64,000 nucleotides of DNA from NCBI RefSeq assembly GCF_025629245.1, contig NZ_JANZXN010000020.1, positions 1,920-65,919 of the forward strand. The letters run 5' to 3'. Of this stretch, positions 41,198-43,927 are shown in pieces. The number at the start of each line of letters is the position of its first letter. Position 1 is the first letter of the stretch. The translations under genes and the position numbers were made by a program. Below the pieces are notes generated by a model that was given only the letters and a program-made list of their open reading frames with translations, was not told where the DNA came from and made no database searches. This stretch comes from Natronobiforma cellulositropha. Lineage in GTDB: Archaea; Halobacteriota; Halobacteria; Halobacteriales; Natrialbaceae.

Positions 41198-43120
41198 ATG
41201 GGATTCGACACGATGGGCGACGGCGAGCCGGACCGGGACGGGCGGCCGCAGCAGGGCGAACACACGGACTCGAGGTCTCGAGAGAGTGTGACGTCCCGGC
41301 GGGCCGTTCTGAACGCACTCGGGGTGAGTACGGCCGTCGCAGTGGGGGCAGGCACCGTCCAGGGAGTAACGGCGGAACCGACGGCCGCCGGGAGTGAGAC
41401 GGCCGGGCCGACACCACCGACGAACCTCGAAGCGAGTCCGCCGCCGGCGGGAGAGGGTATCGAACTCTCGTGGGATGGAGTCGACGAGCCGTGTCGCGAC
41501 TCGCTCTCACACTACGTGATCACGCGAACAGGTGACGCGGTGGAGACCGTCCCCGCGGGAGTCACCCGGGCGCGAGTCGACGCGTCGGCCAGCGACGGGC
41601 AGACCGTCTACGGCGTGAGCGCGGTCGACGAGTACGGACTCGAGTCGGAAGCGGCGACGGTCGAGGCGACGGCCGCGGCCACGACGCCCGACGCACGGGT
41701 GAGTCTGGTTCCGGGAACCGACATGCTCGATGTCGATGAGATCGACGTCGGCGACTCGGTCCCCGCCGAACTCGTCCTCCGTCCGAGAGCGGGCGAGACG
41801 GTCGACCTCGAGGGGTTCAGCGCGGACGTGTGGGCGTCGACGCCGTGTGCGGTGGCGTTCACGTCGATGGGGTACGGCGACGGGTTCACCTCGGTCGAAC
41901 CGCCGGCGTACTCGAGCGACAACGATGGGGTCGTACTCACCGCTGGCGGCTTCACCGGCGAGGTCGACGACGAGGTGGTGCTCGCGACGATCCTGGTCGA
42001 GGGACGGGGCGTCGCAGCGACGGAACTGTACGTCGAGAATCTCGAGGTCACAGCCGACGGTGGAGAGTCCATCGACGCGGCAAACGACTGGACGACGCTC
42101 CCCGTCGAAGCGCCGGCAGAGGAGGTTCCCGACGCGCCGTCGAACCTCGAAATTCGGCAGGGCATCAGTACCAGAGCCGACGTGTTCTGGGACGGCGTCG
42201 ACGACCCCTGTGACCCCTCGCTCTCACACTACTCGATAACCATCGACGGCGTCGAAGCGAAGACGGTCCCAATCGGCACCGAGTCGGCGACGATCAGGCT
42301 CCAGGCAGACACCTTCACCGTCGGTGTCGAGACCGTCGACGGAGACGGCAGGACGTCGGTCGCGGCGACCGATACGTTCGGAGGTCTCGCCGTCGCAGAT
42401 CCGGGAACACTCCTCCGGGTCGAACTCCCCCGCGAGCGGATCGAACCCGGCGAGACCATCGAGGCACCGATCGTCCTCAGCGAACTGATCGGAACGATCC
42501 CACCCCACTTCGGGTTCGAGATCGACGTCAGCGTGAGCGCACCCTGTGCGGCGACGATCACGGATGCGTCGTACCCGCGTGCGTACCCGATCCCGGACGA
42601 TCTCGACCTGCCGGAGGACCCCCTCGAGTACCCGGAACTGCTCCCGTACGACGACGATCCGTACGTCGTCGAACCGACGCCGCCAGCGGTCGCCGACGAC
42701 GGGTCGTCGGTAACGCTCGCCGTCGACCTGTTCAGCCGCGGGCTCGAGACGGCCGATCTCGTGATCGCGACCGTCGAACTGACCGGCCAGGCCGACGGCC
42801 ACACGGAGATCGAAACCAGCGTGAGAGCGCTCGACGCCGACGCACCGATGAACGTACTGCCCCGCTGGGAGACGCTCGAGGTCGACGACAGCCCGACACC
42901 TCCACCGATCGGCGACAACGAGAATCCCCCGCAGGACCTCGACGGTGACGGACGCTACCGCGACGTCAACGGCAACGGCAGGCTCGACTTCGACGACGTC
43001 GTCACGTTCTACCAGCACATCGACGAGCCAGCGGTGACGGCGTACCCCGACGCCTACGACTTCGACGGCAGCGGCGAACTCAGTTTCAAGGATGTGATTG
43101 CGTTGGTCGAACGGGTGTAA
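41198..43120 (+). CDS. Secreted protein with fibronectin-III-like, cohesin-like and dockerin-type domains
   Basis: 640 residues. Tat signal: twin Arg in SRRAVLNALGVSTAVAVGAG, near residue 32. Then, by rough position: FnIII-like 65-155 (LSWDGVDEPCRDSLSHYVI), a cohesin-like beta-sandwich 165-305 with VSLVPGTDMLDVDEIDVGD, FnIII-like 308-398 (FWDGVDDPCDPSLSHYSI), a second cohesin-like domain 400-560, and a C-terminal dockerin type I (DVNGNGRLDFDDVVTFY and YDFDGSGELSFKDVIALV) with two calcium loops. The two FnIII/cohesin pairs are a tandem duplication. Cohesin-like plus dockerin in one chain suggests self-assembly, which is inference. No catalytic domain is seen. Confidence 0.85.
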   Translation: MGFDTMGDGEPDRDGRPQQGEHTDSRSRESVTSRRAVLNALGVSTAVAVGAGTVQGVTAEPTAAGSETAGPTPPTNLEASPPPAGEGIELSWDGVDEPCRDSLSHYVITRTGDAVETVPAGVTRARVDASASDGQTVYGVSAVDEYGLESEAATVEATAAATTPDARVSLVPGTDMLDVDEIDVGDSVPAELVLRPRAGETVDLEGFSADVWASTPCAVAFTSMGYGDGFTSVEPPAYSSDNDGVVLTAGGFTGEVDDEVVLATILVEGRGVAATELYVENLEVTADGGESIDAANDWTTLPVEAPAEEVPDAPSNLEIRQGISTRADVFWDGVDDPCDPSLSHYSITIDGVEAKTVPIGTESATIRLQADTFTVGVETVDGDGRTSVAATDTFGGLAVADPGTLLRVELPRERIEPGETIEAPIVLSELIGTIPPHFGFEIDVSVSAPCAATITDASYPRAYPIPDDLDLPEDPLEYPELLPYDDDPYVVEPTPPAVADDGSSVTLAVDLFSRGLETADLVIATVELTGQADGHTEIETSVRALDADAPMNVLPRWETLEVDDSPTPPPIGDNENPPQDLDGDGRYRDVNGNGRLDFDDVVTFYQHIDEPAVTAYPDAYDFDGSGELSFKDVIALVERV

Positions 43121-43249
43121 GCCGTTCGTGCTCACTGAGCACCGCTCAGTGGTGTTCGAGCGCGTGTAGCGCTCGAGCTAACGAGACGGCAGTCTCGTTG
43201 TGTTCGAACGGGTGTAGCGTTCGAGTCGGGAAACACCGGTCGGTCCCGA
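43108..43249. repeat. Array of six alternating hairpins (three A, three B) with ~48-bp period
   Basis: A hairpins: 43108-43128 (CGAACGG / CCGTTCG, spanning the stop codon of the preceding gene), 43157-43175 (CGAGCGC / GCGCTCG), 43205-43223 (CGAACG / CGTTCG), all with a GTGTA loop. B hairpins between them: 43133-43151 (CACTGAGC / GCTCAGTG), 43180-43199 (AACGAGAC / GTCTCGTT), 43226-43249 (TCGGGA / TCCCGA). Stem changes between A copies are compensated on the other arm. They lie between convergent genes, so they may act as bidirectional terminators or RNA processing sites. Confidence 0.8.
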
Positions 43250-43261
43250 GGAGGAGGTGGC

Positions 43262-43927
43262 CTACCCCTCGAGCGTCCAGCGCAACAACACCCCCTCGTC
43301 GAGACGCTCGACGCCAGCCAACTCGAGATCCGGAAAGTCGGTGACGAAGCCGTCGCCGTCGGCGAGCGTGGGGGCGTCACGGCCGCCGATCAGCGTCGGG
43401 CCGACGAACACCGAAAGCTCGTCGACCAGACCGCACTCGAGCAGCGAGAAGATGAGTTCGCCGCCGCCTTCGACCATCACGGTCTCGATACCTGCGTCCG
43501 CGAGGGCGACGAACGCGGGCAGGAGGTCGACGCGTTCCTCCCCGGCGGTGACGAACTCGACGTGGTCGGCCGCGAGCGCCGCCCGCCGCTCGAGGTCGGC
43601 GCGCTCCGTGACCAGCAGGTAGGTGGTCGCCGCCTCGTCGAGAATCCGTGCGTCGGGCGGGGTGCGGGCGCTCGAGTCGACGACGACGCGTGCCGGGTGC
43701 GGTGGCCGTCCCGCCTCGCGTCGTCGCTCGATCAGCGCCGGATCGTCGAGCGTCAGGTGGGGGTCGTCGGCGAGGACGGTGCCGACACCAACGACGACGG
43801 CGTCGCTCTCGGCGCGCAGGCGGTCGACGCGGGCGAAGTCCTCGGGACCGCTGATACGGATCTGCTCGCGGCGTCTCGAGGAGAGTTTCCCGTCGGCGCT
43901 CATCGCGGCGTTGACGACGATGTGCAT
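43262..43927 (-). CDS. arfC: 2,5-diamino-6-(ribosylamino)-4(3H)-pyrimidinone 5'-phosphate reductase
   Basis: 221-residue RibD C-terminal (RibD_C/DHFR-like) reductase. The archaeal version opens with MHIVVNAAMSADGKLSSRRRE and contains DRLRAESDAVVVGVGTVLADDPHLT and the later MVEGGGELIFSLLECGLVDE with the GGG NADPH loop. It catalyses the reductive step of the riboflavin and F420 precursor pathway in archaea. Length and motifs match the archaeal enzyme well. It is monocistronic here with no other rib/arf genes adjacent. Its 3' end is 13 bases from the last hairpin of the array in the convergent gap. Confidence 0.9.
   Translation of the reverse strand: MHIVVNAAMSADGKLSSRRREQIRISGPEDFARVDRLRAESDAVVVGVGTVLADDPHLTLDDPALIERRREAGRPPHPARVVVDSSARTPPDARILDEAATTYLLVTERADLERRAALAADHVEFVTAGEERVDLLPAFVALADAGIETVMVEGGGELIFSLLECGLVDELSVFVGPTLIGGRDAPTLADGDGFVTDFPDLELAGVERLDEGVLLRWTLEG

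Follow-up and report, generated by a model that had tools for sequence, protein, structure and literature searches.

In the gene cassettes of integrons, a folded element at the gene end, the attC site with the core GTTRRRY, marks the junction between exchangeable units. Bacteria have REP, BIME, and REPIN elements, short and imperfect palindromes some 20-40 bp long which are clustered near gene ends. An ORF flanked by a GTAG-tagged REP often takes its stop codon from the repeat (PMC3733652), and E. coli REPs located at most 15 nt from a stop reduce translation (cited in PMC12306157). Clustered-hairpin intrinsic terminators have been described in bacteria and consist of at least two hairpins, at most 15 nt apart, just past the stop codon (PMC8355165). 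In Haloferax volcanii, hairpins are reported upstream of 3' ends, one of them terminating 59% of transcripts (PMC7237163). Hairpins are known to arise and persist through template switching between their arms. Quasipalindromes are hotspots of this process: a short inverted repeat shows compensatory changes there, and its arms are nearly perfect (PMC8794818).

We analysed a stretch of 64,000 nucleotides from Natronobiforma cellulositropha (the window), which carries an array of hairpins at the end of a gene for a dockerin-type secreted protein. The features of the array and its surroundings are the following.

41198-43120, plus strand: host gene, dockerin-type secreted protein of 640 aa, an ORF with the C-terminus ...FKDVIALVERV*
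43106-43154, plus strand: unit 1, 49 bp, A1 and B1, with the end GTG
43108-43128: hairpin A1, 7 bp stem, loop GTGTAAG
43133-43151: hairpin B1, 8 bp stem
43155-43202, plus strand: unit 2, 48 bp, A2 and B2
43156-43176: hairpin A2, 8 bp stem
43180-43199: hairpin B2, 8 bp stem
43203-43225, plus strand: terminal copy, A3, TTC GAA CGG GTG TAG
43204-43224: hairpin A3, 7 bp stem
43226-43249, plus strand: sixth hairpin, weak, 6 bp stem and 12-nt loop
43262-43927, minus strand: RibD_C-family reductase gene (Pfam RibD_C, E 2.9e-51), outside the array

The C-terminus of the host protein matches the consensus of the 47 dockerin-type C-termini which a protein search found in this genome (E 1.8e-15); its Pfam Dockerin_1 match (residues 587-636, E 0.0028) stays under the curated cut-off. 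Six alternating hairpins between convergent genes had been reported in the first-pass annotation. The convergent setting is correct, and from position 43108 onwards five of the hairpins are strong (A-B-A-B-A). The sixth is not followed by any further TTCGA copy, and because it is weak and unlike every recurring B family, the firm count is five. The regular period holds up, with the A copies 49 and 48 bp apart, as does the placement of the first hairpin over the end of the dockerin gene: A1 starts within the gene and has the stop codon TAA (43118-43120) in its loop.

A1 consists of the coding codons GTC GAA CGG GTG TAA and their complement downstream, while A2 repeats the gene end outside the translated sequence (TTC GAG CGC GTG TAG). 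The paired stem changes from CGAACGG/CCGTTCG to CGAGCGC/GCGCTCG are exactly as annotated. The codons of the three copies read VERV*, FERV*, and FERV*, and the conserved GTGTA of the A loops is therefore the last codon plus stop. The array folds more strongly than every one of 200 shuffled versions, with z -4.4 on one strand and -5.3 on the other. The curated covariance models of Rfam gave no match in the array and only sub-threshold chance matches outside it; a terminator scan of 43000-43400 gave neither a T-tract nor a terminator-like site, and plasmids had no BLAST match to the array.

The idea of a duplicated 3' end motif is borne out by the other dockerin-type genes of this genome, since every A copy repeats the last codons and the stop. 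When the genome was searched at the DNA level, the next best matches were immediately behind the stop codons of further dockerin-type genes. Gene-end copies at a spacing of 41-62 bp are present in 17 of the 47, six of which have three copies. The common 3' flank reads ...LFERL*, encoded as TTC GAR CGN CTG TAA, followed by the complement of these codons, by hairpin B, and then by GTG and a second, untranslated TTC GAG ... TAA. In the gene at 30610 of contig 23, copies of 50 bp follow one another in exact tandem. A genome-wide search with a unit model (R1) found strong matches essentially only at dockerin-type gene ends. As R1 includes the window units, a covariance model devoid of window sequence (R2, which contains two other dockerin units) served as an independent check. 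It recovered unit 1 (43106-43159, E=4.6e-10), the runner-up within the 64 kb window having E=0.26.

Similar arrays are found on other genes in other haloarchaea. In a sample of 392 genomes of the order, R2 matches 137 with an E-value no higher than 1e-7. Outside the genome of the window, the best model matches are mainly on an enolase-superfamily sugar-acid dehydratase which ends ...LFDEA* and is annotated as a member of the mandelate racemase/muconate lactonizing enzyme family. Its A arms are its own codons (TTCGACGAAGC-GTGA-GCTTCGTCGGGC), and its B hairpins CTGAGC/GCTCAG and CAAATC/GATTTG occur exactly or near-exactly in dockerin arrays, too. Of 60 further loci from the 392-genome list, an automatic filter assigned 50 to the dehydratases; several of the other 10 are dehydratases, too, which it had overlooked. 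When plasmids were searched by BLAST with a composite dehydratase array, four from haloarchaea matched, and in three of these the match was at a mandelate racemase-type gene. Candidate matches which were due to chance or had no assignment were excluded from the host list, which holds at least three unrelated non-dockerin hosts from other haloarchaea: the dehydratase, the beta subunit of a DMSO-reductase-II-type enzyme, and a bat/HTH_10 regulator. In each case the A arms match the host gene's own codons, and the B hairpin families are common to all. The dockerin genes of another genus (L127, L128) likewise have arrays fitted to their own codons (FESL). As R2 finds A, B, and the TTYGA junction together, the window array and the dehydratase gene-end arrays appear, at the level of sequence, to belong to the same element family.

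At the DMSO-reductase-type locus, the array is located between the genes for the beta and the gamma subunit, the latter being of the ethylbenzene-dehydrogenase type. At two such loci, L181 and L183, the final copy of the array extends over the start codon of the subunit gene behind it (TTTGACGATGACTGA in L181), and a displaced gene end appears to have been reused there as a start region. The gene for the bat/HTH_10 regulator (L353, 7303-8319, minus strand) carries a five-copy array with dehydratase-like internal copies, FDEA* or FDES*. No dehydratase is encoded within the 8 kb fetched around it, and a transfer between genes is possible.

The closest relatives in kind are the REP/BIME elements, with which the arrays share the supply of a stop codon. 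Unlike these, however, the units are arranged head to tail as direct repeats of 47-50 bp, with no alternating inverted orientation, and each unit holds two different hairpins together with the last codons of its own host gene. Only a few gene families carry the arrays, and the model search of the genome of the window was strong only at dockerin-type ends. The units inspected have no constant GTAG or CGTC tag (GTAG is present in some A loops only because TAG follows the last codon), and no transposase was seen linked to them. Free dispersal of the B hairpins was considered and dropped, because the exact pattern, with 13 occurrences in 125 genomes, is nearly always at a dehydratase gene. With integron cassettes the arrays have in common a folded gene-end element at the junction of exchangeable units, but a unit carries only the gene end and not the gene, and the TTYGA junction does not follow the attC core. 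Clustered-hairpin terminators resemble the arrays in the close spacing of hairpins past a stop codon; they differ in that the arrays are tandem copies of a gene end. A terminator role is possible, but is not favoured because the window has no T-tract and because one family's array is located between two subunit genes of one enzyme. Hairpins at gene ends are what an ordinary terminator cluster or REP/BIME elements would provide; given the direct arrangement, the lack of a T-tract and of dispersed copies, and the presence of host codons in the units, we consider such an assignment highly improbable.

The dehydratase was used to compare gene ends with and without an array. For 80 named loci the 3' ends were retrieved and read, and the set of distinct loci comprises 174. 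An array of 2 to 7 copies is present at 127 of these and missing at 47; complete units mostly have 49-51 bp (186 of 261). Arrays were found in 24 of 36 genera, seven of which show both states. Haloferax mucosum and H. elongans have one extra unit, beyond which the sequence corresponds to that directly following the gene end of H. larsenii, which has no array. This fits an insertion and a later precise deletion alike. A simple target-site duplication was rejected, as the unit inserted in Haloferax reads FDEE* and the end it displaced FDEA*. H. gibbonsii and H. massiliensis have arrays as well.

Hairpin A, counted when it has 7 bp or more, is present in 72% of the first copies, 52% of the internal copies, and 18% of the last copies, compared to 21% of array-less genes and under 1% of shuffled sequences. 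The fact that the last copy resembles the array-less gene end rather than the first copy indicates that it looks like the original end. Judged from these sequences, the units thus seem to lie between the gene body and the original end, which is the last and usually hairpin-less copy. An in-frame stop is kept in 109 of 136 untranslated internal copies (17 expected), 71 of which read exactly FDEA*. Exact tandem units exist in one dockerin gene and in Haloprofundus and attest to local duplication. A unit which is near-identical (96%) in Haloferax and Halogranum suggests exchange between genera.

The covariation which the first-pass annotation had proposed to look for in relatives was found, and it extends far beyond the gene in the window. 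Of the two arms in a first copy, only the 5' one is coding. The third base of the dehydratase Phe codon (TTC or TTT) matches its partner in the 3' arm in 104 of 114 first-copy units (Fisher p 2e-14, uncorrected for phylogeny). The corresponding value for the Asp codon is p 3e-16, and internal copies give p 4e-10 (Phe) and 6e-10 (Asp), all uncorrected for relatedness; because the loci are related, these p-values overstate independence. With one unit per genus, 17.9 of 20 are matched compared to about 65% expected. Pair counts on hand-fitted alignments agree, although such alignments lean towards structure.

The annotation had taken covariation to imply selection for structure. The covariation is real, but selection does not follow from it alone, because template switching yields the same pattern and close relatives gain or lose units. 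Selection on RNA would be expected if the arrays were functional 3'-UTR elements, in which the stop-codon hairpin and the cluster govern how stable the mRNA is, how its 3' end forms, or how translation terminates, tuned by copy number. Strong pairing and covariation in both coding and non-coding copies fit this, and so do the loops of first-copy A hairpins, which are often CGTAAG or CGTGAG and thus GNRA tetraloops in RNA; the effect of E. coli REPs near stops and the hairpins of H. volcanii cited above provide parallels. On the other hand, 47 of the 174 dehydratase loci manage without an array, with genera mixing both states, and G-T is not clearly favoured over A-C among mismatches (29 to 18, p 0.14; 15 to 5 in B hairpins and 14 to 13 in hairpin A). 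The array between the beta and gamma subunit genes and the lack of a T-tract terminator in the window also argue against an RNA element, which we regard as somewhat unlikely to be the main explanation.

Template switching could also act without any selection. Gene-end hairpins would then be made and perfected by template switching during replication, and repeats by slippage, with neither function nor mobility. Perfect arms with paired changes of several bases (e.g., TTTGATGAATC/GATTCATCAAA) and the exact tandem duplicates are what such a process would leave behind. Alone, however, it leaves the repeat unit of 47-50 bp and the B hairpins shared by unrelated genes unexplained: B hairpin families recur in different families of the order, for which local copying is no explanation, and the arrays are limited to a few gene families rather than being found at any TTCGA gene end. 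We thus consider a pure by-product of mutation unlikely.

The sequence comparison brings out a unit structure, precise presence and absence between relatives, exact tandem duplications, four unrelated host gene families, and covariation of the arms. We consider it reasonably probable that these are arrays of gene-end hairpin cassettes. Each unit would be a complete substitute gene end, in which the last codons from TTYGA onwards and the stop form the 5' arm and loop of hairpin A and are followed by the complementary 3' arm, hairpin B, and an end which is GTG or similar. The first unit would provide the translated C-terminus, with older ends persisting downstream as untranslated copies. Units may be gained, lost, and passed on through recombination or slippage at the repeated TTYGA and hairpin sequences; as every unit carries an acceptable end and a stop, gain and loss would be nearly neutral for the protein. 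The hairpins might act at the transcript 3' end or, as DNA hairpins, drive their own exchange, and the pairing of the arms might be kept by templated correction, by selection on RNA or DNA hairpins, or by both. The copies in the window have in common a GTG codon specific to this locus, as local duplication would produce, and this counts against cassettes. No transposase or recombinase linked to the units was seen, nor did free copies turn up elsewhere; the case for mobility comes from their distribution. It is conceivable, though we would not yet call it probable, that they represent a new class of small mobile archaeal DNA: hairpin cassettes which enter certain genes at their 3' ends, bring a replacement C-terminus and stop, and stack into arrays recording earlier ends.

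The open-access literature covered by our search (subscription journals being outside its coverage) held no description of such arrays, and they seem to be an undescribed, widespread family of small haloarchaeal gene-end repeats. Because only one of two paired arms codes for protein, they offer a natural test of selection against template switching as the source of compensatory changes. Haloferax, the genus of the model organism H. volcanii, provides natural pairs of species with and without a unit, in which the effects of stop-codon hairpins in archaea can be measured.

The three dehydratase homologues encoded in the genome of the window (L269, L270, L271) have no array of repeated gene-end copies. 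Many of its 47 dockerin-type C-termini are 85-96% identical to the query consensus and clustered, on contig C23 at about 3.9-38 kb and on contig C54 at about 23-42 kb, which suggests strong homogenisation of the dockerin module. At one further locus (L326, G307:C1:1235500-1237100), a short ORF fuses the N-terminal part of the dehydratase to the end VDGEELFDER, as if the middle had been deleted.
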